In this document: piece by piece, positions 2,160 to 17,652 of the stretch | How positions within the stretch are numbered: position 1 is the first letter of the stretch | Layout: each line of letters starts with the position of its first letter | Assembly (NCBI RefSeq): GCF_023150235.1 | Contig: NZ_JAKLLH010000012.1 | Location: forward strand, 97,626 to 161,625 | Origin: Azonexus sp. | GTDB taxonomy: Bacteria > Pseudomonadota > Gammaproteobacteria > Burkholderiales > Rhodocyclaceae | DNA: 64,000 bases | Reading direction: 5' to 3' | The notes under the pieces: generated by a model | Told to the model about the DNA's origin: nothing | The model's database searches: none | What the model saw: the letters and a program-made list of their open reading frames with translations, nothing else | Program-made: the position numbers and the translations under genes

Positions 2160-2836
2160 TCCTTCGGTTCCTGCAAGGTAGTGAGATAAGCCAGGATGTC
2201 GTTGATATCCTTTTCCTGCAGCGTGTTGAGCACGCCGGTCGTTCCTTCGTCGTCGTGCGGGCGATCACCCTTCAGGTACAGATCGGCCTGGCGCTTGAGG
2301 TAATTGGTGTATTGCCCGGCCAGCATCGGGAACATGCCGCGTCCCTTGCCGGTCTTGCCGTGACAGCCGGCACACTTCTTCTGGTAAATCACGCCGCCGG
2401 CCTCGACATCGCCTTCGGCGCGCGGCACGATCATCACCTTTTCGACCATCTGCAGCCGGGTCAGCGCGTCCTCGTCGCCGGTGAAAGTCGGCATCTTGGT
2501 CGGCAGTTCGATCGCATTCAGATATTTGGCGATTTCCTTGATGTCCTCGTCCGGCAGCTCGCGCTCCTGGGTATAGGGGAACATCGGGATATTCACCCGC
2601 ATCCGGGCGCGGAAGTTGCGCAGCTGGGTTTCGATGTACTTCACCTGCTGGCCGGCAATACGCGGATACTCACCCTTCTTGCCACCGGCGCCGAACTCGC
2701 CGTGGCAGGCGGCGCAGGTGCCGTTGATATCCTTGCCGGCGGCCTTGCCGCCTTCCATTTCGACGGCACCGAGCGGCATCGCCACCAGGCCGGCCACCGC
2801 GCCCCACCACCACCATTTACCCAAAGCCATGCGCAT
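2156..2836 (-). CDS. Diheme c-type cytochrome (cytochrome c4-like)
   Basis: A 226-residue exported protein with an N-terminal hydrophobic signal (WWWWGAVAGLVAMPLGAV) and two CxxCH heme c sites: CAACH near residue 40 and CAGCH near residue 150. Methionines in MFPYT and MFPMLAG are candidate sixth ligands. The two-domain layout fits the cytochrome c4 class of periplasmic electron carriers. Its ATG overlaps the stop codon of the TonB receptor by one base (TAATG) and its own stop overlaps the next start (ATGA), making a tight three-gene unit. A second ATG two codons in is an alternative start. The electron-transfer partner cannot be read from the sequence; linkage to metal uptake is inferred. Confidence 0.85.
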   Translation of the reverse strand: MRMALGKWWWWGAVAGLVAMPLGAVEMEGGKAAGKDINGTCAACHGEFGAGGKKGEYPRIAGQQVKYIETQLRNFRARMRVNIPMFPYTQERELPDEDIKEIAKYLNAIELPTKMPTFTGDEDALTRLQMVEKVMIVPRAEGDVEAGGVIYQKKCAGCHGKTGKGRGMFPMLAGQYTNYLKRQADLYLKGDRPHDDEGTTGVLNTLQEKDINDILAYLTTLQEPKE

Positions 2837-5070
2837 TACTCCAATGATCCGTTTGCGGCGGATTGTCGCAGTTTGTGGCGGGAGAAAAATTGATTTACGT
2901 CGGCGCCGTCCGACTGCGGCGGTTTTGCGGGAAATTCACGGTCGACCGTGAATTTCCCGAGGGTCACGAAGTAGCTGGCGACGCCCTTGATCCGGTCGTC
3001 TTCCTGGCGCAACGGGGTGCCGCTGCCGTCGATCTGGTAGAGGCTGCCGGTGCGCGCCTCGCGGGTCACGTTCTGTGCCGAGAAGCGCAGGTTCATCTGG
3101 CGGTCGAGCTTGTACAGCGCATAGAGGTCGAGCTGGCGGCGGGCGCCTTGGACTTGGCGAATCAGCGCGCTGCTTTCGCGGTCGAGCGCCGAGACGTAGG
3201 TAAAGGTACCGCCCAGGGTCAGGCGCTGTTCGCTCCACTCGTAGTCCCAGCCGAAATTGGCGCTCTTGCGCGGGCCTTCGCCCGCGCCCAGGCCGGGCAC
3301 CTTGTCGAGCATCTGCGTCCGGGTATAGGCCAGATTGCCGCGCAGCGTCAGCTGCGGCAGCCCCCAGGCCTGCAGCCGTGCCTTGTAGTCGAACAGAGCA
3401 CCGCGCAGTTCGGCGCGGCCAACGTTATAGGGGCGCTCGATCCAGCGGCCACCCTCGTCGGCAATCAGGCGCTGGATGTAGTTGTCGATTTCGCGGTCGA
3501 AGACCGAGAAACCCAGCGTGCCGGCACGCTCGGGCAGGAAATGCTCGACCCCGAGTTCGATGCTGCGCAGACGCTCGGCTTCGAGATTGCCGTTACCGCC
3601 GCGATCCGGATTGCTCGCCGAATTGCTGCCGCTGGCCGGCCGCACCAGCGGCGTCAGGTCGCGCGAAAACGGCGCCTTGGTATTGCGCGCAATGCTGGCG
3701 CGCAGGTTCCACTCGTCGGAAACCTGCCACAAATAATGCAGCGAAGGATCGACGCTGTGCTGGCGATGCTCGACATGGCCGGCGCTGGCGCTTTCGACCC
3801 GGGTATCGAGGAACTGGTAGCGCAAGCCCGGCGTCAGTACCTGGCGTTCGCTCATTTGCCACTCGTCCTGGATCCACGCCACCCGGCGCTGCTCGGTCAT
3901 CTGCGCGCTGTTGTCGGCACCGCCGCCCTGGCGGCGCTGCTCGTCGTCGGTCGTCTTGTGCCGCCATTCGAGCGCGCCGGTAATCAGGTGGCTGTCGCCG
4001 AACAATTGCTTGCGCCGGGCTTCAAGCATCTGCTCGCGCTCCTCGCGCAGCGTGTTTTCTTTCTGGAATGCAGTCTGCCCGCCGCTGCCGTCGTATTTGC
4101 CGGTGCGCCGCTCGCTTTCGTCGCGTTCGGCCTGGAGCATGCCGCGCACGGTGGTTTCGGTCCCGCCCGGGGCGCTCTTGCGCCACTCGCCGCTCAGCCG
4201 GCCGCTGGTCCGGCGACCGTCCTCGGCGATCAGGTCGCGGCTGGAAATGCCATTGCTCAGCCGGTCGACCGTGGCCGAGCGGTCGGTTTCGGTATGGGTC
4301 AGGAAAGGCGTCAGCGTGAAGCGCTCGCCGTTGCCGAGATTCCACGAAAAGCGCGGGCTCAGCGTCAGGTTGCGGTCCTCGCCGCGCTGCGTCGCCTTCT
4401 CCTGCAAGCTGCCGCCGGCAAACAGGTTGGCGTTCATCGTCTGCTCGCCGACCATCGGCCGGCTGTTGTAGGCACCGGAGAGCAGGTAGCCGAAGTCGTT
4501 GCGGTCGGGTTCACCGTACTGACCTTCGAGGCGTAGCGCCGGGCGGCCGTCAATGGCACCGACCCCGAGCTTGGCGCCGGCAGTCTGCTGCCTGGGCACG
4601 TCGCGCAGAATCAGGTTGATCACCCCGCCCGGCCCAAGCACCGGGAATTCGGGCGTGCTGTTGCGGATGATCTCGACCCGCTCGATCAGATCCACCGGCA
4701 GGCGCAGCGCGGCCATCGGGTTGCGACCGCCGCCGGGCAGCGGCTGGCCGTCGACCAGGATCTGCGGCATGAAGCGGTCGGGAGCGCGCATCCGCCCACG
4801 CGGACCGCCATCCATATCGGCACTCATGCCGGTACCGGGCAGTTTGGAAAGTAGCTCGCCGGTACTCATTGCATCCAGGACGTCGATTTCCTCGCGGTCG
4901 TAAACGATTTTTCCGGCGCTGGCATTGCGGCGTATTTCCTGGCTCTGCGAACGCTTGGCCTCGACCTTGACCTCGCCAAGCACGACCTCCCCGGCCGCAA
5001 GCCAGGGCGAGGCGGAGAGCAGCGAACAAAACAGGGGCGTAGCCAGCAAGGCGGGGTTTCTTTTTTTCAT
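2836..5070 (-). CDS. TonB-dependent outer-membrane receptor with C-terminal read-through tail
   Basis: A 744-residue TonB-dependent receptor. I chose the ATG at 5070 because it is followed by a good signal peptide (KKRNPALLATPLFCSLLSASPWLAAG); an in-frame ATG at 5154 would add 28 residues with no signal features. After the signal comes a plug domain (about residues 30-170, with FMPQILVDGQPLPGG and GPGGVINLILRD), then a beta-barrel. Barrels of this class end in an aromatic residue, and SYFVTLGKF near the end looks like that natural terminus. The frame continues about 35 residues through a 32-bp palindrome to the TAATG shared with the cytochrome gene. Substrate is unknown; iron or another metal chelate is likely. 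A GATAATCAT Fur-like half-site lies about 130 bp upstream. Confidence 0.88.
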   Translation of the reverse strand: MKKRNPALLATPLFCSLLSASPWLAAGEVVLGEVKVEAKRSQSQEIRRNASAGKIVYDREEIDVLDAMSTGELLSKLPGTGMSADMDGGPRGRMRAPDRFMPQILVDGQPLPGGGRNPMAALRLPVDLIERVEIIRNSTPEFPVLGPGGVINLILRDVPRQQTAGAKLGVGAIDGRPALRLEGQYGEPDRNDFGYLLSGAYNSRPMVGEQTMNANLFAGGSLQEKATQRGEDRNLTLSPRFSWNLGNGERFTLTPFLTHTETDRSATVDRLSNGISSRDLIAEDGRRTSGRLSGEWRKSAPGGTETTVRGMLQAERDESERRTGKYDGSGGQTAFQKENTLREEREQMLEARRKQLFGDSHLITGALEWRHKTTDDEQRRQGGGADNSAQMTEQRRVAWIQDEWQMSERQVLTPGLRYQFLDTRVESASAGHVEHRQHSVDPSLHYLWQVSDEWNLRASIARNTKAPFSRDLTPLVRPASGSNSASNPDRGGNGNLEAERLRSIELGVEHFLPERAGTLGFSVFDREIDNYIQRLIADEGGRWIERPYNVGRAELRGALFDYKARLQAWGLPQLTLRGNLAYTRTQMLDKVPGLGAGEGPRKSANFGWDYEWSEQRLTLGGTFTYVSALDRESSALIRQVQGARRQLDLYALYKLDRQMNLRFSAQNVTREARTGSLYQIDGSGTPLRQEDDRIKGVASYFVTLGKFTVDREFPAKPPQSDGADVNQFFSRHKLRQSAANGSLE
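2928..2959. repeat. 32-bp perfect palindrome, CGGTCGACCG family, inside 3' end of TonB receptor gene
   Basis: Arms 2928-2943 and 2944-2959 are exact reverse complements, with the core TTCACGGTCGACCGTGAA. It is read in the receptor frame as K-F-T-V-D-R-E-F. In position and strength it resembles the terminator copy at 1750-1793, but it lacks a T tract and is translated through. Confidence 0.9.
4262..4271. repeat. CGGTCGACCG core, in-frame copy in TonB receptor
   Basis: A minimal copy of the dispersed palindrome, flanked by CAGC and TGGCC, so only the 10-bp core is symmetric. It lies in the barrel-coding part of the receptor gene. Confidence 0.6.
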
Positions 5071-5187
5071 CGTCACAATGCGCGCGGAAACTGCGGGTTG
5101 GAAAAGCCGGCAAGTAGCGGCCAAAGAAGGCGCATCGTAACAAGGCGGGCGCAATTTGCGAGCGCCCTTTACAAAGCCTTAATCTTT

Positions 5188-5212
5188 TTACAAATGTTTG
5201 ATAATCATGAAC
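5188..5212. promoter_or_regulatory. Weak candidate Fur site upstream of first TonB receptor
   Basis: The stretch around TTTGATAATCATGAAC has one good Fur half (GATAATCAT) and a poor second half. It lies about 120-140 bp upstream of the receptor start at 5070. The call rests on one half-site plus the expected control of such receptors. Confidence 0.35.
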
Positions 5213-5279
5213 TTGAGCGCAAACACCCCGGCGCCGCACCAGCAGCCGGGGTGTTTGCGTCAAGCGCGTCGCGGACCGG

Positions 5280-7385
5280 TCAGAATGCCGTCGACAAGGT
5301 CAGGCGGGCATTCACCGGCGCACCCGGCGAGATATTGTTGTCGCTATGCGCGGTCGGCGTGTACTTCTGATTGGTCAGGTTCTCGACATTGAGCGCCAGG
5401 CGGGTCTTGCCGTCGGCGAAGCGGTAGTACACCGCGCCATCGACCCGGGCAAACTCGGGCAACTTGACGGTGTTGGAGAACGAGGTATAGCTCTCGGACT
5501 GGTAGATCACGCCGAGACCGAGACCCCAGCCACCGGCCAGGTCGAACTTGTTCCACACCGACAGGGTGTTACGCGGCACCAGGCCAACGCGCCGGCCGGC
5601 CGGCGCGTCGCTGGTGCCTTTCTCGATCAGCGCGTCGAGATGGGCGTAACCGGCGTAGACCTTCCAGTGGCTGGTCACTTCGCCCTGCAGGCCAACCTCA
5701 ACCCCTTCGGTACGCTGCAGGCCACCGAGAACCAGGCGCTGACCGGTCGGGTCGCTCGGGTCCTTGGTCTTGACGTCGTCGCGGTCGGTGCGGAAGACCG
5801 CCGCCGACAGGGTCATCTTGGGCAGCACGTCCCAACGCGCGCCAAGCTCGTAGTTGAGCGCGCTTTCCGGCTTCAACTGGGCGTTGGTGGTGGCCAGCGA
5901 CAGTTGTTCGCCCTGCGGCAGGAAGGAGTAGCTATAGCTGGCGTAGTAGGTCGACACGGCGTTCGGCTGCCAGATCAGGCCGAGGCGCGGGCTGACCTCC
6001 TTGTCGGTGCGACCGAGATCGGTCGGCGCCGCGCGGCGGTCGTCGAGCTTGAGCTTGTAGTAGTCGTAACGCAAACCGGCCAGCAGCTTCCATTCCTGGC
6101 TCAATGCGATCTGGTCCTGCAGGTACACGGCGGCGGTATCGGCGGTGACCTGGTTGTTGGCATCGGAGGCGGTGGCGGCGAAGCGGGTGGCGCGGCCATA
6201 GGGCGAAGCAGCGGCGACGCTCAGGCTGGTGGCATTGCCGAAGTAGCCGGTCTGACGGGTATTGCGGCTGTCCTGGTGGCCAAGTTCGAGACCGACCAGC
6301 ATCTGGTGTTCGATGGCGCCGGTCTTGAACTTGAAGCTCAGGTCGGTCTGGTTGAAGTAATTGGTGCGGTCGTTGCCGCTGTTGTAGGCCGCGAGATTGA
6401 GCGTGCCGGCGTTCTGTACCGCACTGCTGGCAAAGACGTTCTGGTAGAACTTGTCGTAGTGGCTGACGCGGAAGCTGTTCTTCAACTTGACGTCGTTGCT
6501 GAAGGCGTGATCGAGCACGGCGGCCAGGCTGTTGACCTCGACCCGCGCCACACTTTGCTCGGCATTGCCGAAAAAGCGGCTGCGCGCCGTGTCGTAGGGG
6601 CGCCCGGCAAAAGACGGCTGGCCACGGTCGGCGGTGCGCTCGTCGAAGAAGTACTCGTAGGACAGCGAGAGCAGGGTACGGTCGCTCAACTTGAACGCCG
6701 CCGTCGGGTTGAAGCCGTAGCGCTTGAGATCGACGCCGTCGCGGAAACTCTCGGCCTGCTCGCCCATCAGGTTCATGCGCCAGGAAGCACCTTCCGACAA
6801 GCGGCCACCAAGGTCGCCGCTGGCCCGCACCTGGCCGTAGCTGCCAAGGGTCAGGCTGGCATCGGCATGACGGGTGAAATCAGCACGCTTGGTCACGCGA
6901 TTAACCACGCCGCCGGCGCCGCCACGACCGAAAGCCATGCCCGCCGGACCCTTGATCGCCTCGACCCGCTCGACGTTGTAGAGATCGCGGAAATACTGGG
7001 TATCGTCGCGCACACCATTGACGAAGAAATCGGCGGTGGAATTGATACCGCGAATCACCATCTGGTCGCGATTACCCTCGCCCTGCGCCATGCTGGCGCC
7101 GGGAACGTAACGCAGCACGTCGCCCATGCCACGCATCGCCTGGTCCTTGACCATTTCCTCGCCAACCACGGCGACCGAAGCCGGCACATCCTTGAGCGCG
7201 GTATCGGTCTTGGTGAAGGAAGCAGAACGGGTGGCGCGGTAACCGGCAACCGGACCGTCGGCGATTTCGCCACGGTCCTTGACCACCACCGGGGCCAGCG
7301 ATTGTTCTTGCGCCTGGGCCACAGCAACGGTGGCCAGGCCGGCAACGACGGCAAGCAATGAAGGCTTGATCTGGAACGGCAACAT
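5280..7385 (-). CDS. TonB-dependent siderophore receptor
   Basis: A 701-residue outer-membrane receptor. A signal peptide (KPSLLAVVAGLATVAVAQAQ, cleaved near residue 25) is followed by a TonB-box-like stretch and a plug with DVPASVAVVGEEMVKDQ, MVIRGINSTADFFVNG and the conserved VEAIKGPAGMAFGRGG. The barrel then runs to a terminal phenylalanine (RLTLSTAF), as expected for BAM recognition. The plug style matches the hydroxamate/catecholate siderophore receptor class (FhuE, Fiu, BfrD types); the ligand cannot be assigned. The gene is alone on its strand, and a Fur-like site sits about 190 bp upstream. It precedes the restriction island, which is transcribed the other way. Confidence 0.9.
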   Translation of the reverse strand: MLPFQIKPSLLAVVAGLATVAVAQAQEQSLAPVVVKDRGEIADGPVAGYRATRSASFTKTDTALKDVPASVAVVGEEMVKDQAMRGMGDVLRYVPGASMAQGEGNRDQMVIRGINSTADFFVNGVRDDTQYFRDLYNVERVEAIKGPAGMAFGRGGAGGVVNRVTKRADFTRHADASLTLGSYGQVRASGDLGGRLSEGASWRMNLMGEQAESFRDGVDLKRYGFNPTAAFKLSDRTLLSLSYEYFFDERTADRGQPSFAGRPYDTARSRFFGNAEQSVARVEVNSLAAVLDHAFSNDVKLKNSFRVSHYDKFYQNVFASSAVQNAGTLNLAAYNSGNDRTNYFNQTDLSFKFKTGAIEHQMLVGLELGHQDSRNTRQTGYFGNATSLSVAAASPYGRATRFAATASDANNQVTADTAAVYLQDQIALSQEWKLLAGLRYDYYKLKLDDRRAAPTDLGRTDKEVSPRLGLIWQPNAVSTYYASYSYSFLPQGEQLSLATTNAQLKPESALNYELGARWDVLPKMTLSAAVFRTDRDDVKTKDPSDPTGQRLVLGGLQRTEGVEVGLQGEVTSHWKVYAGYAHLDALIEKGTSDAPAGRRVGLVPRNTLSVWNKFDLAGGWGLGLGVIYQSESYTSFSNTVKLPEFARVDGAVYYRFADGKTRLALNVENLTNQKYTPTAHSDNNISPGAPVNARLTLSTAF

Positions 7386-7592: not shown

Positions 7593-7903
7593 ACAAAACC
7601 TTGCCGGCACGACCAGCCGCCAGCAAGGTTGATGCAGAGAGAGAAAGGCTGCTGCCGTCGATGATGGAAAAATCTGCGCGAGGAAGATAGTCAGTTTTTT
7701 GGCCTTACCCGACATTCGACTAGTCTGAAAACTCCGGCTGCCTTGGCGAGGAAAGCAGTCCTCTGTGGTGACTATCAAAAAGGGGCGATTCACCCCGCTG
7801 AGCAAGCTTTCCCCTGAATTGCAGTTCTGACTCAGTGTAAGCTACCGGTTTTGCAATCAACGCGAATGGCATGAAAGCCGTTTGCCCCCAAGCCTGCAAC
7901 CCC

Positions 7904-9452
<1,549 letters not shown>

Positions 9453-9463
<11 letters not shown>

Positions 9464-9902
9464 ATTGACACAAGCCTCTGCCGACTATCGTGCCTGGCTG
9501 GGAGAGCTGAAAGCCCGTTTCCGCCAGGTCCAGCTCAAGGCGGCGGTTGCGGTCAACACCGCTTTATTGCAGTTTTACTGGGACCTGGGCGCTGATATGG
9601 TCACTCGGCAGGTGCAGTGGGATTGGGGCTCAGGGTTCCTCAAACAACTCAGTGCCGACCTGATGCTCGAATTTCCCGAGATGAAAGGATTTTCAGCCAG
9701 TAATCTCAAGTACATTCGCCAGTGGCATCTGTTCTGGGTAGCAGATGCAATTGGCCAACAGCCTGTTGGCCGAATGGGGCAGCAGCCTGTTGCCCAATTT
9801 GCGAAACAGCCTGTTTCGCAAATTTTCGCCATTCCCTGGGGCCACAACCTCGCCGGTTTGAGCGGGAATGGGGGGCGATGCAGACAAAGACGAGGGGACT
9901 AG
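9453..9902 (+). pseudogene. Truncated DUF1016 (YhcG-type) gene, N-terminal domain only
   Basis: The 149-residue product starts MSSELTQ on the repeat shared with hsdM and matches the DUF1016 N-terminal domain: AVAVNTALLQFYWDLG, WGSGFLKQLSADL, FPEMKGFSASNLKYIRQW, and the end signature IPWGHN near residue 130. Full YhcG-type proteins continue with a PD-(D/E)xK nuclease domain. Here the similarity stops right after PWGHN and is followed by a short basic tail. In another frame the tail region ends in GLGYEF-stop, which is the HsdM end sequence. The gene therefore looks broken by a recombination event. Three short palindromes encode repeated QQPV/KQPV motifs just before the break. DUF1016 genes are frequent companions of type I systems. 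Confidence 0.7.
9753..9824. repeat. Three adjacent palindromes with a common CAG-C-CTG centre
   Basis: Arms: GGCCAACAG-C-CTGTTGGCC (9753-9771), GGGCAGCAG-C-CTGTTGCCC (9777-9795, one mismatch), and 14-bp arms around C9810 (9796-9824, including TTTGCGAAACAG). Each is read in frame as a (Q/K)QPV motif of the DUF1016 fragment. Confidence 0.85.
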
Positions 9903-9916
9903 GCTATGAGTTCTGA
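9894..9916 (+). repeat. Diverged copy B of the hsdM 3'-end repeat
   Basis: GGGGACTAGGCTATGAGTTC plus TGA. It is the same as copies A and C over TATGAGTTCTGA and differs by an inserted base and substitutions before that. Read in the right frame it still encodes GLGYEF-stop with different codons (CTA GGC instead of CTG GGG), so it looks like the end of another hsdM allele. Confidence 0.7.
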
Positions 9917-10733
9917 AAGCCCAAAAGAAGAAACCTCGGCTCCAATCACCGCCGCAAAGAGCGGGAGAGGGAGTTCCGAGGCTTACGGGACCATTTTACC
10001 GCAAATGAACACAATGGATTGCTCAGATTTCTGCCGCCAACTTGAGGCGCACATGTCCACTGAGCGATTGAGCGCTTACGCTGCGTCACCTGAAGAAATC
10101 GAAACCACGCCCAAACTGGTGTTGTCACGCTACCTATTGAACATGGCCTTGTGCGAAAGTCTTTACCCAGCCCTGCAAACCTGCGAGATCGCGCTCCGAA
10201 ACGCCATTCATACCTATTTGACGACAACCTTGAGGCGTGAAGACTGGTTTGACGCTCCAAGCTTTCAGTTGACACCGTGGGCGCAACTCGAAGTGCGCAA
10301 GGCCAAAGACAAAATTGCAAAATCGGGGAAAGTCGTAACCGCTGGCCGCGTGGTGGCTGAACTGCAATTTGGGTTCTGGACCAGCCTGTTTGAAGCCCAT
10401 TACGAACAAAAAACCGCATTTCTGCCGCGTGGCATCAAAGCTGTATTCCCACACTTGCCGAAGAGCTTGCACAAACGCAAGGAACGAAAAGGCGATCTGG
10501 AGCGGGTGCGAACTTTACGCAACCGCGTGTTTCACCATGAGCGCATCGTGCATTGGACAGACTTGGAAGCACAGCATGACCTGATTGTTCAAATCATCGG
10601 CTGGATCAGCCCGCCTTTGCAGCACATAACAGCGGCGCTGGATCGATTTCATGCGGTGCGGAAAGCGGGGCTCACCCCGTTTCTGAATAACCCGATGTGG
10701 CATGTGGGCGAAGCTGGGGGGGCTGGGGTATGA
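9906..10733 (+). CDS. Abi-like protein with HEPN-type motif, inserted between hsdM and hsdS
   Basis: A 275-residue soluble protein. Residues ~60-110 contain LSRYLLNMALCESLYPALQ then CEIALRNAI, and residues ~205-220 contain LRNRVFHHERI. That R-N-x3-H arrangement is typical of Abi-family/HEPN-fold proteins, many of which are RNases in abortive-infection or toxin systems. The start is the ATG inside repeat copy B, giving MSSESPK. Its end runs into copy C (GEAGGAGV, stop overlapping the hsdS start). Base composition is lower in GC than the flanking chromosome (many AA/TT codons), consistent with transfer. Family assignment is from motif shape, so moderate confidence. A role in phage defence is inferred from family and location. 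Confidence 0.65.
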   Translation: MSSESPKEETSAPITAAKSGRGSSEAYGTILPQMNTMDCSDFCRQLEAHMSTERLSAYAASPEEIETTPKLVLSRYLLNMALCESLYPALQTCEIALRNAIHTYLTTTLRREDWFDAPSFQLTPWAQLEVRKAKDKIAKSGKVVTAGRVVAELQFGFWTSLFEAHYEQKTAFLPRGIKAVFPHLPKSLHKRKERKGDLERVRTLRNRVFHHERIVHWTDLEAQHDLIVQIIGWISPPLQHITAALDRFHAVRKAGLTPFLNNPMWHVGEAGGAGV

Positions 10734-10740
10734 GTTCTGA
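10714..10740 (+). repeat. 27-bp direct repeat, copy C (before hsdS)
   Basis: Identical to 9437-9463. In the hsdM frame it would again read KLGGLGYEF-stop, although the upstream frame here belongs to the Abi-like gene. It supplies the start codon of hsdS. Confidence 0.9.
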
Positions 10741-12121
10741 GTCGCAGGAGTTCCAACTCGATGAAATTTGCGATTTCGTGAACGGGTTTGCCTTCAAGCC
10801 TGAAAACTACATCGAGAAATCCGCGGAAACCTATGAAGTATTTCGTATGGGATACATCGGTCGTGGTGGTGGATTCAAAGAGGACAGCTCGCCTGTTTTC
10901 GTCTCTCGATCAAACCCCAAGTTAGATAAATACCGTTTGCGTCGTGGAGACATCGTTATCGCGATGACCGACATGAAGGACAAAGTTGCAATTCTTGGCA
11001 ACACAGCAAGAGTTCCGCAAGATGATCGCTTTGTCTTGAACCAGCGAGCTGGCTTGATACGAGTTTCGAAGCCGGACATTGTTTGCCCGATTTTTCTTTA
11101 TTACTACTCTAACTGGAAACCACACGTCGATTACTTGCGAGCCAGAGCGAACAGTGGCGTGCAAGTAAATCTTTCTACCGGGGCAATCAAAGAAGCCAAA
11201 CTTTTGTTGCCTCCGCTAGCAGAACAGAGACAGATAGGGTCTTTGTTGTCGTCACTAGACGACCGCATCACCCTCCTGCGCGAAACCAATGCCACGCTCG
11301 AAGCCATCGCGCAGGCGCTGTTCAAGTCGTGGTTTGTCGATTTCGACCCCGTCCGCGCCAAGCAGGCAGGCCGCGCCCCGGAAGGCATGAGTGACGCCAC
11401 CGCCGCCCTCTTTCCCGACAGCTTCGAGGAATCGGAATTGGGCTTGGTGCCGAAGGGGTGGCGTTTGGTTCCATTTGGACAGTTGCTTTCCCACACCATT
11501 GGCGGTGATTGGGGCAGTGAGGCGCCCGACGACAAGAACGATGTCCGTGTTGCCATTATTCGCGGCACCGATATTCCTGATTTGCAGTCAGGCGCAAATA
11601 GCCGTGTCCCCGTTCGTTACACCTCACAAAAGAAACTGGCCACTCGGAAGTTGGAGGATGGCGATATTGTTTTGGAGGTGTCTGGTGGCAGCAAAGACCA
11701 GCCCACCGGCAGGGCACTGTATCTGACCGACGGTCTGCTCGGACAATTCGACTGCCCAGTAGAGCCCGCCAGCTTTTGCCGATTGTTGAGGCCGAATACA
11801 AAAGATATAGGACTGCTTCTTGGACAGCATCTGACGTACATCTATGCCCAAGGGAAAACATGGGAATACCAGAACCAAAGCACAGGCATTGCCAACTTCC
11901 AAACGACACATTTTCTCGAAACGGAGTTGGTGGCTGTTCCCGATGATGAGGTGTTGGCAGAGTTTGCCAAAGTGATTCGACCCATAGTTGATCGGGCGCA
12001 CTTAACCCAAGTTCAAGAACTTGCCACCCTTCGCGACACCCTGCTGCCCCGCCTGATCTCCGGCCAACTGCGGCTACCGGAGGCCGAGACTCTGGTCAAA
12101 GAAGCCTCATCGACCTGCTGA
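10730..12121 (+). CDS. hsdS: Type I restriction-modification specificity subunit HsdS
   Basis: The 463-residue DNA-recognition subunit. Two target-recognition domains (about residues 5-150 and 225-400) each end in a conserved helical region: PPLAEQRQIGSLLSSLDDRI near residue 160-180 and VQELATLRDTLLPRLISGQL near the C-terminus. The start is the ATG in repeat copy C; a GTG/ATG-type extension to 10697 reads into the preceding gene's frame and is not supported. TRD regions are clearly lower in GC than hsdM/hsdR, as is common for shuffled specificity domains. The gene is followed by a small membrane protein, not by hsdR, so the hsd operon is split by accessory genes. Confidence 0.92.
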   Translation: MSSESQEFQLDEICDFVNGFAFKPENYIEKSAETYEVFRMGYIGRGGGFKEDSSPVFVSRSNPKLDKYRLRRGDIVIAMTDMKDKVAILGNTARVPQDDRFVLNQRAGLIRVSKPDIVCPIFLYYYSNWKPHVDYLRARANSGVQVNLSTGAIKEAKLLLPPLAEQRQIGSLLSSLDDRITLLRETNATLEAIAQALFKSWFVDFDPVRAKQAGRAPEGMSDATAALFPDSFEESELGLVPKGWRLVPFGQLLSHTIGGDWGSEAPDDKNDVRVAIIRGTDIPDLQSGANSRVPVRYTSQKKLATRKLEDGDIVLEVSGGSKDQPTGRALYLTDGLLGQFDCPVEPASFCRLLRPNTKDIGLLLGQHLTYIYAQGKTWEYQNQSTGIANFQTTHFLETELVAVPDDEVLAEFAKVIRPIVDRAHLTQVQELATLRDTLLPRLISGQLRLPEAETLVKEASSTC

Positions 12122-12134
12122 CCGGAAAATCCAG

Positions 12135-12671
12135 ATGACCCCACACGAAGTGCTGAGCTTGGCTAACGACTACGGAATCACTGCAGCGGCAGTTGCTTTT
12201 CTGTTGATCGTGCTCGGGAACATGGCTGCTGCATGGTTGACCCAGGCATTCCTGCCCATGCGCCTCAAAAAGCATTCGTGGAAGTGGGAGAAGGAACAGT
12301 GGGCTACGGAACAGTTCCTCGAATCCTTGTCGCGGGTTGAGTTCATGGGAAAGCATCTCGTCCGCTCAGAGGCGGGTGAGAAAGTGTCACTTTCAAGGCT
12401 GAGCTTCAATGAAACTGAGGCAGAAATCGTCAAGGTCATCTCCGATCTGCACAGCGGTGGGCATCGCATCCGTCCATATCTGAATCAGCGCAACCAGGCG
12501 CTTTTTGATGATTACCTGCAGCAATCCTCTGCTGCTTTTGATGCGTCAAAAGCAAGCCATGGCGAGTGGATGCAGGATGACTACGCAGCAGAAGAGGATC
12601 ACAGGCTCAGTTTCATCCATGAACAAAGTCTGATCGCCGGAAGGTTGATCGGAAAGGTGGAGATAGCTTGA
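12135..12671 (+). CDS. Small single-span membrane protein of unknown function in the hsd operon
   Basis: A 178-residue protein with one strong N-terminal membrane helix (about residues 15-38, ITAAAVAFLLIVLGNMAAAWL) followed by a basic patch (RLKKHSWKWEKEQW) and a soluble, mainly helical domain. No recognised motif. It starts 13 bp after hsdS and precedes the DUF2971 gene by about 37 bp, all on one strand. Membrane-anchored helical proteins are a known feature of several defence modules, so a sensor or effector role is possible, but nothing in the sequence shows it. Confidence 0.7.
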   Translation: MTPHEVLSLANDYGITAAAVAFLLIVLGNMAAAWLTQAFLPMRLKKHSWKWEKEQWATEQFLESLSRVEFMGKHLVRSEAGEKVSLSRLSFNETEAEIVKVISDLHSGGHRIRPYLNQRNQALFDDYLQQSSAAFDASKASHGEWMQDDYAAEEDHRLSFIHEQSLIAGRLIGKVEIA

Positions 12672-12708
12672 TGGCAGCTAAAGCATGTAAGTCAGGAGCC
12701 GGTTTGAG

Positions 12709-13518
12709 ATGAGAAAACTCTACCGCTACCAGCCCATCCCCGTCCCTGGCGATGACCGCCTGAGCCAGTTGCAGAAGGATGAAGTCTGGTTTTCCGACCC
12801 TGCCGGCTTCAACGATCCCTTCGATCTGAAGCCGCGCATCAGCAATCTGATGCCGGATCGTTGGTGCGACGCCCCCGAATTCGATACCGCCACGCGCCGG
12901 GCGTTGGCCGCTTTGCTGGCCGACCCGGCCATGTATCAAGGTGCGCTGTTCATCGACCAGGCGCTGATCGACGAATTCCGGGCATGGACGGCTGGGGATG
13001 CGGGATACGAGCAGCTTTGGGATGAACGCCTGTGTAACGCCATCAAGAAACGAATCGCCCAGTTCGGCGTGGTCTGTCTGACGCCGCAATGGGATAGCCG
13101 CTTGATGTGGGCGCACTACGCCAGCAATGGACAAGGGTTCTGCATTGAATATGAGGTTGATGGTTTCAGGAATAATCAGGATGTCCGCTACGTGCCGGTG
13201 CAATACGCCTCAGAAATTCCCGAGCTTTGCCTCTCCGAGGCGATGTTCACCCCGCATCAGTTTCTGTATCGGGTGCTGGCGACCAAACATGCCGATTGGG
13301 CCTATGAACAGGAGGTCAGGCTGGTTTGCCTGACCGGCAAGGCAAAGAATGTGAAGCTCGACCAGGACTTTGTGCGCATGACCGGGCTGATTGCCGGCCA
13401 TGCGATGCCGGAGCCGTTGCAGTCACACCTGAAGGAAACGGCGGCACGACTGGGGGTTAAGGCTTGGAAGGTGAGGACAGGAATTCTCGGCAGTTTCGAC
13501 GTGGAGCGGTTGGCATGA
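12709..13518 (+). CDS. DUF2971 domain protein
   Basis: A 269-residue protein with the DUF2971 layout: an N-terminal KLYRYQPI segment, VWFSDPAGFNDPFDLKP near residue 25-42, VVCLTPQWDSRLMWAHYA near residues 115-135, GFCIEYEVDGF, and an EQEVRLVC segment near residue 200. DUF2971 proteins are of unknown biochemical function and are often found in defence islands and mobile regions. Its stop overlaps the next start by four bases (ATGA), so it is translationally coupled with the DUF3800 gene. Confidence 0.8.
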   Translation: MRKLYRYQPIPVPGDDRLSQLQKDEVWFSDPAGFNDPFDLKPRISNLMPDRWCDAPEFDTATRRALAALLADPAMYQGALFIDQALIDEFRAWTAGDAGYEQLWDERLCNAIKKRIAQFGVVCLTPQWDSRLMWAHYASNGQGFCIEYEVDGFRNNQDVRYVPVQYASEIPELCLSEAMFTPHQFLYRVLATKHADWAYEQEVRLVCLTGKAKNVKLDQDFVRMTGLIAGHAMPEPLQSHLKETAARLGVKAWKVRTGILGSFDVERLA

Positions 13519-14420
13519 GCCGCCCCGGCACCCAATATTCCCTGTTCGAATCCGTCGAGCCGATTCCGGTTGAACAATCTCCACAGGAGCCAGCTGCCAA
13601 GCGCTTCAGTGACTACATCGTCTATGTCGATGAAAGTGGCGACCACTCCCTGGCCAGCATCGACCAGGACTACCCGGTATTCGTCCTGGCCCTGTGCGTC
13701 TTCCATAAGCGGCACTATGCCGAAAAGATCGTCCCGGCCATCCAGAAGCTGAAGTTCAACTACTTCGGCCACGATAGCGTGGTGCTGCATGAACACGAGA
13801 TACGCAAGCAGAAAGGCGATTTCGCCTTCCTCAGCCACCGACCGACACGCGATGCTTTCATCGACCATCTGTCATCGGTGATGGATGCCAGCAACTTCAT
13901 CCTGATTGCCGGCGTTGTCGACAAGGCCCGTCTGGGCCGGGGCGAAGGGACGAGTTCGAACCCTTATCACATTGCGTTGGGCGTCTGCCTGGAAGCCCTA
14001 CGCGAGTTCCTGGCCGAGAAGCAGCAGGACCAACTCAAGACGCATGTCCTGGTGGAGTGTCGCGGCAAGAAAGAAGATGCCGAGCTTGAACTGGAATTTC
14101 GGCGAATTTGCGATGGGGACAACCCTGGCGGCAGGTCCCTGCCCTTCGACATCGTCTTTGCTGACAAGAAAACCAACCTGGCCGGCCTGCAACTGGCCGA
14201 TCTGGTGGCCCGCCCGGTGGGTATCAGCTACATCCGCCCGCAACAGGAAAACAAAGCGTTCGAGATGCTGAAGAAAAAGTTTTTCTGCGATGGCGGCAGA
14301 AGTAACGCGGGATGTGGGTACGAAGATGTGGGGCTGATGATTTACCCGCCCAGAAAAGCGAAAGGCCCCGGTGAACCCACCGAGACCATAGCGCCGACCG
14401 GGAACCCCCAATCCACTTAG
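13515..14420 (+). CDS. DUF3800 domain protein (RNase H-like fold)
   Basis: A 301-residue protein with the DUF3800 signature YIVYVDESGDHS near residues 35-47, a histidine/glutamate segment (VVLHEHEIRK), a glycine/arginine segment (ECRGKKEDAELE) and an FADKKTNLAGLQLADLVA stretch near residue 220 whose acidic residues resemble the family's metal site. DUF3800 proteins are predicted RNase H-like nucleases, frequent in mobile and defence regions. I take the ATG at 13515, which overlaps the DUF2971 stop; an upstream ATG at 13464 lies inside that gene. The pair DUF2971-DUF3800 looks like one unit placed between hsdS and hsdR. Confidence 0.8.
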   Translation: MSRPGTQYSLFESVEPIPVEQSPQEPAAKRFSDYIVYVDESGDHSLASIDQDYPVFVLALCVFHKRHYAEKIVPAIQKLKFNYFGHDSVVLHEHEIRKQKGDFAFLSHRPTRDAFIDHLSSVMDASNFILIAGVVDKARLGRGEGTSSNPYHIALGVCLEALREFLAEKQQDQLKTHVLVECRGKKEDAELELEFRRICDGDNPGGRSLPFDIVFADKKTNLAGLQLADLVARPVGISYIRPQQENKAFEMLKKKFFCDGGRSNAGCGYEDVGLMIYPPRKAKGPGEPTETIAPTGNPQST

Positions 14421-14478
14421 GCCTTAATTTTAGTGCAAAAAAACTGACAGTGCTTGAAAAGTTGAGGAAATCACGGGC

Positions 14479-17400
14479 ATGACCGAAGACCAACTCGAAC
14501 AGGAAACCCTAGTCTGGCTGGCGGAAGTCGGTTACACCCACCTGTACGGTCCGGACATTGCCCCGGATGGAGATTCGCCCGAACGCGCCAATTACCTGCA
14601 GGTGGTGCTGCCCTTCCGCCTGCGCGAGGCTGTCCACCGCCTGAATCCTGACATCCCCACTGCCGCCAAGGAGGATGCTTTCAAGCAGGTGATGGACTTG
14701 GGCATCCCGTCGCTACTGGCCGCCAACCGCCACTTTCACAAGCTGCTGGTCGGCGGCGTGCCGGTGCAGTATCAGAAGGACGGCGAAACCCGGGGCGATT
14801 TCGTCCGCCTGATCGACTGGGCCAACCCCAAGAAAAACGAATGGCTGGCAATCAACCAGTTCTCGATCAAGGGCCATGCGGGGAAAAATGCCTACACCCG
14901 CCGCCCCGACATCATCCTGTTCGTCAATGGCCTGCCGCTGGTGCTGATCGAGCTGAAGAACCCGGCAGACCTGAATGCCGATATCTGGAAGGCTTTTGAC
15001 CAGCTGCAGACCTACAAGGAACAGATTCCCGACGTCTTCCAGTACAACGAGTTGCTGGTGATTGCCGATGGCAGCGAGGCGCGGCTGGGTTCGCTTTCCG
15101 CCAATGCCGAGCGTTTCATGCAATGGCGCACCATCGACGGCGTGACGCTCGACCCGCTGGGTCAGTTCAACGAGCTGGAAACCCTGGTGCGCGGCCTGCT
15201 GGCGCCGGCCATGCTGCTCGATTATCTGCGCTACTTCGTGCTTTTTGAGGACGACGGCACCCTGATCAAGAAGGTGGCCGGCTACCACCAGTTCCATGCG
15301 GTGCGGGCGGCGATCAATCAGGTGGTGGCTGCTTCCCGCCCGGGCGGCTCGCACAAGGGCGGCGTGGTCTGGCATACCCAGGGCAGCGGCAAGAGCATCA
15401 CCATGACCTGCTTTGCCGCGCGGGTGATGCGCGAAGCGGCGATGGAGAACCCGACCATTGTCGTCATCACCGACCGCAACGACCTGGACGGCCAGTTGTT
15501 TGGGGTGTTTTCGCTGGCGCAGGACTTGTTGCGTGAGCAGCCGGTGCAGGCCAACACACGGCAGGATTTACGCGCCAAACTGGGCAACCGCCCATCCGGC
15601 GGCATCGTCTTTGCCACGATCCAGAAGTTCATGCCCGGCGAGGACGAGGATACGTTCCCGATCTTGTCCGAGCGTAGCAACATCGTGGTGATTGCCGACG
15701 AGGCGCACCGCACCCAGTACGGCTTCGAGGCGAAGCTGAAAATGGGCAAAGTTTTGCGGTCGACCGCAGAATTTGGGCAAAAAGCGGCCAATGATATTCA
15801 GGTTTTGCAGGCCGCCGAACCCGTCGCCCGTTACCAGGTCGGCTACGCCCAGCATCTGCGCGATGCGCTGCCCAACGCCACCTTTGTCGCCTTCACCGGC
15901 ACCCCGGTGTCCAGCGAAGACCGCGACACCCGCGCCGTGTTCGGCGATTACATCCACGTCTACGACATGCAGCAGGCCAAGGAGGATGGCGCCACGGTGG
16001 CTATCTACTTCGAATCCCGCCTGGCCAAACTGTCGCTGAAGCAGGACGAGTTACCGGCCATCGACGACGAAGTCGATGAACTCGCCGAAGATGAGGAAGA
16101 GGACCAGCAGGCCAAGCTGAAGAGCAAATGGGCGGCGCTGGAAAAGGTGGTCGGCGCCGAGCCGCGCATTGCCAGTGTGGCCGCCGATCTGGTGGCGCAT
16201 TTTGAAGCCCGCAGCCAAACCCAGTCCGGCAAGGCGATGGTGGTGGCCATGAGCCGGGAAATCTGCGTGCATCTCTACAACGAAATCGTCAAGCTGCGCC
16301 CCGACTGGCACGACGCGGACCCAGAGCTAGGCGCCATCAAGATCGTGATGACCGGCTCAGCCAGCGATAAGGCTCTGCTCCGCCCCCATATCTACAGTGC
16401 CCAGGTGAAGAAGCGGCTGGAAAAGCGCTTCAAGGACCCCGCCGATCCGCTGCGCCTAGTCATCGTGCGCGACATGTGGCTGACTGGCTTCGACGCCCCC
16501 TGCGTCCATACGCTGTATGTGGACAAGCCGATGAAGGGCCACAACCTGATGCAGGCCATCGCCCGGGTGAATCGGGTGTTCAAGGATAAACAAGGCGGGC
16601 TGGTGGTCGATTACATCGGCATCGCCAATGAACTCAAAAGCGCGCTGAAGGAATACACCGCCAGCCATGGCCGTGGCCGGCCGACGGTGGATGCCGCCGA
16701 GGCCTACGCGGTGCTGGAAGAAAAGCTCGACATCCTGCGCGCCCTGCTGCACGGCTACGATTACAGCGATTTCCTCACCGCCAGCCACCAGCGCCTGGCG
16801 GGGGCGGCCAACCATGTGCTCGGCCAGAAGGATGGCAAGAAGCGTTTTGCCGATAACGCGCTGGCGATGAGCAAGGCCTTCACGCTGTGCTGCACCCTGG
16901 ACGAAGCCAAGGCCGTGCGCGAGGAAGTGGCCTTCCTGCAGGCGGTGAAGGTGATCCTGACCAAGCGCGACCTCAGCCTGAAGAAAAAGACCGACGAAGG
17001 GCGCGAACTGGCCATCCGCCAGATCATCGGCGCCGCCGTGGTCTCCGAAGACGTGGTCGATGTCTTCGATGCGGTGGGGCTGGACAAACCCAATATCGGC
17101 ATCCTCGACGATGCCTTCCTGGCCGAGGTGAAGAATCTGCCCGAGCGCAATCTTGCGGTGGAACTACTGGAACGCCTGCTGGAGGGCGAGATCAAGAGCC
17201 GATTTGCCAGCAATCTGGTGCAGGAAAAGAAGTTCTCCGAACTGCTGGCTAACGTGATCAAGCGCTACCAGAACCGCGCCATCGAAACTGCCCAGGTCAT
17301 CGAAGAGCTGATCGAGATGGCGAAGAAATTCCGCGCCGCAGCCCATCGTGGCGAGGCGCTGGGCCTGACCGAGGACGAAGTGCGCTTCTACGATGCGCTG

Positions 17401-17652
17401 GCGGACAACGAATCGGCGGTGCGCGAACTATCGGACGAAACGCTGAAGAAAATCGCCCACGAACTGACCGAAAACCTGCGCCAGAACATCACCGTCGACT
17501 GGTCGGCCCGGGAAAGCGTGCGCGCCCGGCTTCGGCTGATGGTCAAGCGCATCCTGCGCAAATACAAATATCCGCCGGATCAGCAGGAAGCCGCCGTTAC
17601 CCTGGTACTGCAGCAGGCTGAGGCGCTGGGTGGATCGTGGATGACAACGTAG
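14479..17652 (+). CDS. hsdR: Type I restriction enzyme subunit HsdR
   Basis: The 1057-residue motor and nuclease subunit. A PD-(D/E)xK nuclease lies at the N-terminus (D144 in RRPDI, then E158-L-K160 in IELKN). The superfamily 2 translocase follows, with Walker A TQGSGKS (G302-K305), the DEAH box (D407, [10 protein letters not shown]), FTGTPV motif III and helicase C-terminal motifs ([25 protein letters not shown]), then a helical C-terminal domain. The gene appears complete, so the system should be able to cut. It begins 58 bp after DUF3800. A TGCGGTCGACCGCA palindrome lies in frame between the DEAH box and motif III ([10 protein letters not shown]). hsdM, hsdS and hsdR lie in the same orientation with accessory genes between them. 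Confidence 0.94.
15755..15768. repeat. TGCGGTCGACCGCA, in-frame copy of the palindrome in hsdR
   Basis: A 14-bp perfect palindrome with the family core CGGTCGACCG; the flanks change from CA..TG to GC..GC. It encodes R-S-T-A in HsdR. Confidence 0.7.

Follow-up and report, generated by a model that had tools for sequence, protein, structure and literature searches.

hsdM 3' ends before displaced hsdS genes: a probable trace of gene insertion into an overlapping Type I restriction-modification junction

How can a defence gene enter a pair of overlapping genes without destroying the pair? The question is raised by a Type I restriction-modification operon in the window, the whole stretch of 64,000 nucleotides of Azonexus sp. 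DNA analysed here. Judged by family domains, the set of hsdM, hsdS and hsdR appears to be complete, on one strand and in one cluster, and two genes assigned to defence families, a PDC-S02 (DUF1016_N) remnant and a PD-T4-5-like Abi gene, are embedded between hsdM and hsdS. All of these genes lie on the plus strand. The methyltransferase gene hsdM (7871..9463; Pfam N6_Mtase 3.1e-109, HsdM_N 3.6e-23) has relatives of up to 92% identity and probably starts at 7904, because homology to them begins near residue 9-12. It is followed by the DUF1016/YhcG remnant (9453..9902; Pfam DUF1016_N 3.5e-22, PADLOC PDC-S02 2.9e-41), the Abi-like gene (9906..10733; PADLOC PD-T4-5 1.4e-14, Pfam Abi_2 2.9e-4 at 21.6 bits with a cut-off of 25.6) and the specificity gene hsdS (10730..12121; Pfam Methylase_S 1.5e-17). 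After further cargo at 12135..14420, consisting of a 178-aa ORF without a family match, a DUF2971 gene (PADLOC PDC-S31) and a DUF3800 gene, the operon ends with hsdR (14479..17652; HSDR_N, SWI2_SNF2, T1RH-like_C). Upstream of it, two large minus-strand ORFs of 772 and 701 aa (2836-7385) are, by eye, putative TonB-dependent receptors.

The embedded genes are bounded by copies of the hsdM 3' end, all on the plus strand. Copy A (9437..9463) is the genuine end of hsdM and contains the ribosome-binding site and the ATG (9453) of the DUF1016 remnant; copy B (9890..9916) is hsdM-like and contains the start of the Abi-like gene (ATG 9906); copy C (10706..10740, with its 27-mer at 10714-10740) is an hsdM-like stub that lies directly before hsdS and carries a ribosome-binding site and start codon. 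As the earlier note had described, A and C share an identical 27-bp sequence and lie 1277 bp apart, all three copies end in TATGAGTTCTGA, and the ORFs that begin there (9453, 9906, 10730) open with MSSE; over 31 nt A and C are 97% identical. In the hsdM frame A and C encode KLGGLGYEF-stop, and copy B, 74% identical over 31 nt, encodes RGLGYEF-stop by way of other codons. Inside copy C, the TGA of an ATGA overlap with hsdS terminates the Abi-like gene, whose C-terminal residues, GEAGGAGV, are copy C read in another frame. Each copy is also predicted to supply a start signal for the next gene, as had been proposed, with a strong putative ribosome-binding site on the next start codon: copies A and C score 50.0 bits against the weight matrix described below (C at the hsdS ATG) with an anti-SD duplex of -11.4 kcal/mol, and copy B scores 21.5 bits with a weaker duplex of -8.0 kcal/mol.

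To place this junction in its family, we gathered HsdM relatives from related genomes, species-genome contigs (best 80 of 540), a tail-pattern scan, viral contigs, nine plasmids and two E. coli records. Once duplicates were removed the set comprised 124 loci; HsdM identity was 70% or more in 100, and 95 of these 100 were classed. The plasmids come from 184 matching records, 11 of which had HsdM at 80-90%, nine of the 11 being retrieved; the two E. coli loci, both with a plain junction, were retrieved from 1285 of 5426 genomes with a partial hsdM match. In 75 of the 95 loci the junction is direct, that is, hsdM and hsdS overlap by 11 bp and the hsdS ATG lies within the hsdM tail, mostly opening MSSE; a gene or remnant stands between hsdM and hsdS in the other 20. 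Given that the 11-bp overlap is the usual arrangement, the start signal of hsdS sits inside hsdM, and hsdM codons form its ribosome-binding site. The mean anti-SD duplex is -10.5 kcal/mol at direct junctions (n=75) versus -4.5 kcal/mol at ATGs inside hsdM (n=1579), which fits the overlapped start being the ordinary hsdS start in this HsdM family. Variation of the hsdM tail falls mostly at third codon positions, as in protein-coding DNA. The 24 loci with HsdM below 70% identity, in which inserts were not counted, showed no clear case of a tail copy. An hsdM end of the type found in locus L158 occurs in 7 of the 5426 E. coli genomes, at one place each, and all seven are listed as a subunit M gene beside a subunit S gene.

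The same anatomy recurs where hsdS has been displaced. A 27-nt weight matrix was built from the 75 direct junctions, with a site threshold of 8 bits; among 1,035,933 other 27-mers of those loci, on the oriented strand only, the highest score was 1.7 bits. In 13 of the 20 insert loci a tail site falls exactly on the hsdS ATG, the scores being 50.0 (window and L108), 49.4 (L047), 46.3 (L151), 41.8 (L084), 41.0 (L059), 40.3 (L083), 32.9 (L149), 23.0 (L077), 18.3 (L067), 12.5 (L055), 10.3 (L052) and 8.8 bits (L006). Ten of the 13 thus reach at least 18 bits, and the three weak sites, L006, L052 and L055, may be convergent start signals; L006 moreover lies outside the argument from start signals, because its hsdS is fused to the upstream gene. 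At the stubs the anti-SD duplex averages -11.6 kcal/mol (n=12, L006 left out), from -6.9 (L077) to -16.0, so predicted ribosome binding is as good as at plain junctions, copy B being weaker. Starts of internal cargo genes may carry tail sites too, as copy B does and as do two sites of 33.4 and 22.2 bits in L047, which gives arrays of three tail sites in the window and four in L047. No tail site was found at the hsdS start of the remaining seven insert loci (L042, L049, L072, L076, L101, L103 and L105); a stub is therefore not obligatory and other solutions exist.

Scans made apart from the matrix point the same way. In 7 of 95 loci the hsdM tail is matched again, with no more than 6 mismatches in 27, in the 3 kb downstream, versus 6 of 2850 for 27-mers from the body of hsdM, and the reverse complement of the tail was found within 3 kb downstream in none of the 95, even at up to 8 mismatches. 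Across 399 genomes of the order a tail-like pattern with at most one mismatch was matched in 12, at three sites in the window genome and at one in each of 11 others, not all of these 11 matches being necessarily hsdM ends; with the reversed pattern as control, the 399 genomes gave no match. Different genes bounded by tail copies at this junction, which the earlier note had proposed to look for, are present in other genomes. Assembly error, which it had raised as a possible source of the repeats, is unlikely as a general cause, since two plasmids recorded as complete sequences show the same anatomy. In a quickly built tree with 96 HsdM rows (19 insert, 73 direct), 16 changes of the insert label are required, versus a mean of 17.5 in 200 shuffles, and inserts are therefore scattered over the tree; this count pools gains and losses, and support is low on 32 of the 93 inner branches.

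What the copies retain of hsdM varies in length from 84 bp down to about 20 bp. In two Azotobacter plasmids (L149, L151) a Fic gene is followed by an hsdM 3' end of 82-84 bp directly before hsdS; the stub of L151 keeps 27 residues and the stop in the hsdM frame, and that of L149 has a one-base insertion. Aligned to their own hsdM, the stubs of L059, L047 and L083 keep 41-44 bp, a 13-residue hsdM end or close to it, and the others are shorter: 40 bp in L108, about 36 in L055, 34 in L084, 31 for window copy C (35 nt when aligned to the hsdM ends of other loci), 23 for window copy B and 22 in L077. The stub of L052 is shorter than 22 bp, and for L067 no alignment to the hsdM end of the same locus was obtained; the full hsdM frame is absent from the weaker cases L052, L055 and L067. 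We take the copies to be hsdM stubs.

We propose that insertions at this junction keep an hsdM stub on the displaced hsdS start and that each stub is a new slot, a reading to which we give roughly three chances in four. Under it, the window junction would have acquired the Abi-like gene and a DUF1016/YhcG nuclease gene that has since decayed. The hsdM-hsdS overlap would make a clean insertion between the two genes impossible, and after an insertion hsdS would most easily remain translatable if part of the hsdM 3' end stayed before it, since such a stub would preserve the ribosome-binding site and the ATG together with the MSSE start. Cargo inserted in this way would often take over the hsdM-coupled start on its left, would pass the coupling on to hsdS, and would often stop in the stub, mostly at the TGA of the ATGA. 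As each stub would be a new hsdM-like junction, a second gene could be inserted by the same rule. Selection for hsdS translation would presumably retain the stub, whose origin could lie in recombination within hsdM, either illegitimate or one-sided homologous, in some cases from a foreign hsdM allele. The observations that this reading brings together are the anatomy of the junction, the return of that anatomy with different cargo, stubs of variable length and the predicted ribosome binding.

Whose hsdM the stubs come from bears on two other explanations. When 100 hsdM sources were ranked by their fit to each stub, the hsdM of the same locus came first for L083 and L149, second for L059, 16th for L055 and window copy B, 24th for window copy C, 25th for L077, 36th for L108, 39th for L151, 47th for L052, 48th for L084, 60th for L067, and 88th, 96th and 95th for three sites of L047. 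These mixed ranks suggest that local duplication and an exchange of stub and hsdS as a block, or a later replacement of hsdM, are both likely to have taken place. As a rival to stub retention, such an exchange would mean that stub and hsdS moved together from another hsd locus, or that hsdM was replaced afterwards. The stubs of L047, L151, L084, L108 and window copy C do lie closer to the hsdM end of some other locus than to that of their own: 2 mismatches in 45 to the hsdM of L033 against 14 in 45 to the own hsdM for the last stub of L047, 7 against 13 in 82 for L151, 3 against 5 in 34 for L084, and 1 against 2 in 33 for L108. Against the hsdM ends of L051, L062 and L115 copy C is a perfect match for 35 nt, against its own hsdM for 27 (3 mismatches in 35), the eight extra bases being weak evidence as the best match was taken over many loci. 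However, most of these differences are small for a best of 100, L083 and L149 fit their own hsdM best, and the nearest relatives of the window hsdS are L032 and L106 (75% over about 0.8 kb), not the loci with the best matches to copy C, although one of the latter, L062, is fifth among the hsdS relatives. We regard block exchange as a tentative alternative, possible and on balance doubtful.

It is rather unlikely that the insertion of cargo simply copied the resident hsdM end, in the manner of a target site, so that recombination between A and C could delete the insert. The identity of A and C over 27 bp and the close fit of L083, L149 and L059 to their own hsdM speak for such a local duplication. 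The shared 27-mer is nevertheless the hsdM end that occurs most often in this family (in 15 of the 75 direct loci and in 17 of 100 loci, window included), so the identity is no proof of local duplication; copy C fits other loci better than its own hsdM, the last L047 stub stands far from its own, and stub lengths vary. Copy C is, as far as its sequence tells, not specially related to copy A. No hsdM end in the set of 100 loci matches copy B beyond 15 nt, and copy B possibly comes from a different hsdM allele. The stepwise capture put forward in the earlier note accordingly stands as to the arrays of tail sites, which exist in the window and in L047, but the identity of A and C does not mark a local duplication. 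A deletion between A and C was not seen, the nearest HsdM relatives, L031 and L002, having plain junctions followed by other hsdS starts, and no near-identical pair of empty and filled strains was found among the loci collected or in the E. coli check. A transposon with target-site duplication does not fit either: copy length varies, and several copies are nearer to other loci than to their own hsdM.

That downstream genes merely acquired a good ribosome-binding site and an MSSE-like opening by their own evolution, with no hsdM ancestry, is very improbable. The conserved part does include a strong SD and a start codon, and the full hsdM frame is missing from L052, L055 and L067, but in the stubs of 82-84 and 41-44 bp hsdM residues are still encoded, in a reading frame other than that of hsdS. 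Since these long stubs hold hsdM coding beyond the needs of a start, convergence is ruled out for them; as an account of all copies it is contradicted in L047, L059, L083, L149 and L151, and it is for the short or weak sites that it could hold. Least credible of all is an integron-like, site-specific cassette system with the hsdM tail as attachment site, which the roughly one gene per repeat and the arrays of three to four tail sites might suggest: stub ends vary, in place of the fixed boundary repeats of 20-27 bp anticipated earlier, so that no constant recombination core or site exists, the tail varies mostly at third codon positions, and among the insert proteins scanned no recombinase was found except the IS200-like gene of L047.

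Cargo families at the hsdM-hsdS junction include DUF1016/YhcG, Abi-like (in the window), Fic, a Gp49/HTH pair, Schlafen-AlbA_2, IS200-like Y1, NTase_sub_bind/NTase pairs and PIN. The last cargo frame ends at the TGA of the ATGA inside the stub in the window, L052, L067, L084, L108 (a frameshifted DUF1016 gene) and L083 (a remnant), and its last residues, such as GEAGGAGV, are therefore encoded by hsdM-like DNA read in a frame other than that of hsdM. The last cargo of L055 and L077 ends in the hsdM frame, and that of L059, L149 and L151 stops before the stub and not within it. The third frame yields a fusion of cargo and HsdS, as in L006, where one in-frame nucleotidyltransferase-HsdS ORF runs through a weak tail-like site; L072, L076 and L101 are fusions without a stub. 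We noticed in addition that a Polbeta/NTP_transf_2 nucleotidyltransferase and Methylase_S share one ORF at L006:3392-4579, L072:3850-5454, L076:10164-12062 and L101:7293-8315, with an NTase_sub_bind gene upstream of the fusion in L006, L072 and L101. In L047, the region from +1267 to +2166 relative to the hsdM stop holds the IS200-like (Y1_Tnp) gene and a second segment that by eye apparently repeats part of it, each flanked by hsdM-tail sites.

The history of the window cargo can be followed in part. The DUF1016 ORF, which had been taken for a captured fragment, looks instead like a decayed gene. It matches DUF1016_N only and lacks YhcG_C, both of which are matched by its relatives in L084, L055 and L067. 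Compared with four full-length relatives, it can be aligned to about 9853 with scores of 35-81 versus shuffled maxima of 25-27. Just before copy B, at about 9856-9874, a short stretch resembles the 3' end of the DUF1016 gene at the same gene position in all four relatives, its scores of 23-24 (shuffled maxima 25-28) being at chance level in each relative alone. The sequence thus looks like that of a deletion remnant with its break near 9853, in which the N-terminal domain was kept and the nuclease domain lost. A DUF1016 remnant is present in L083 as well and scores 60, 58, 30 and 102 against the four relatives (shuffled maxima 31, 29, 30 and 27), and L076 and L077 hold only N-terminal DUF1016 pieces. 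The Abi-like gene led nowhere as a clue to the source of the cargo: it matches 276 plasmid records, all below 60% identity and at best 44% among the 20 matches listed; it is matched in 4 of 60 related genomes, the window's own included; and its pattern was not matched in viral contigs.

The other junction of the operon is more roomy. The hsdS-hsdR gap exceeds 200 bp in 66 of 73 loci in which both ends were found (12122-14478 in the window), and is therefore the main cargo bay. L150, L152, L154, L155 and L156 have a DUF1016/PDDEXK gene between hsdS and hsdR, in an ATGA overlap with the hsdS stop; this cargo family is therefore found in both slots. In L033 the sequence some 40 nt ahead of hsdR resembles, by eye, the hsdS 3' end of L032, possibly a parallel stub at that junction.

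If stub retention is right, it offers a simple and testable account of how defence genes can get into the hsdM-hsdS overlap and yet not destroy the pair. As a sequence marker, a stub of hsdM on the start of hsdS may help to order captures, and odd C-termini of accessory proteins such as GGAGV would find their explanation in hsdM-like DNA read in another frame. It is conceivable, although we would not count on it, that a general "overlap lock" operates, whereby overlapping gene pairs accept insertions chiefly when a stub of the upstream gene is left on the downstream start, stubs serve as the next slot and as shared homology that exchanges cargo or hsdS blocks between hsd loci, and arrays of defence genes grow without a dedicated recombinase. 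If the rule holds for other overlapping pairs, stubs could reveal inserted defence genes there.

A guilt-by-embedding survey has reportedly been presented by Payne et al. in a 2024 preprint. PADLOC families PDC-S02 (DUF1016) and PDC-S31 (DUF2971) match genes of the window. Embedded defence genes in Type I operons and the coupling of hsdM and hsdS are known, and the stub is apparently undescribed: in the open-licence PMC literature searched, as far as its texts were available, we found no description of an hsdM stub at a displaced hsdS start. In EcoKI hsdM and hsdS overlap and are translationally coupled, and Type IB has been proposed to originate through entry of HsdM-tail DNA into hsdS (Roberts et al. 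2012, PMC3510504); the EcoKI overlap is 1 nt, in contrast to 11 bp in the window family, and that study of an M-S fusion, in the parts available, concerns no inserted gene. The Campylobacter jejuni mlo and rlo genes are variable ORFs between hsdS-hsdM and hsdR-hsdS (Miller et al. 2005, cited in PMC5183652), belonging to other Type I families; they share with the window the presence of intervening ORFs, and the accessible account does not mention a stub. In the portions available of the reports on PrrC in EcoprrI and on DarTG2 between hsdS and hsdR of the EPEC RRDM island (PMC3874165, PMC12707154, PMC12255303), no hsdM 3'-end stub is described before the displaced gene, and the EPEC insert, unlike that of the window, lies between hsdS and hsdR. 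What these cases share with the window is that accessory defence genes lie inside an hsd operon.
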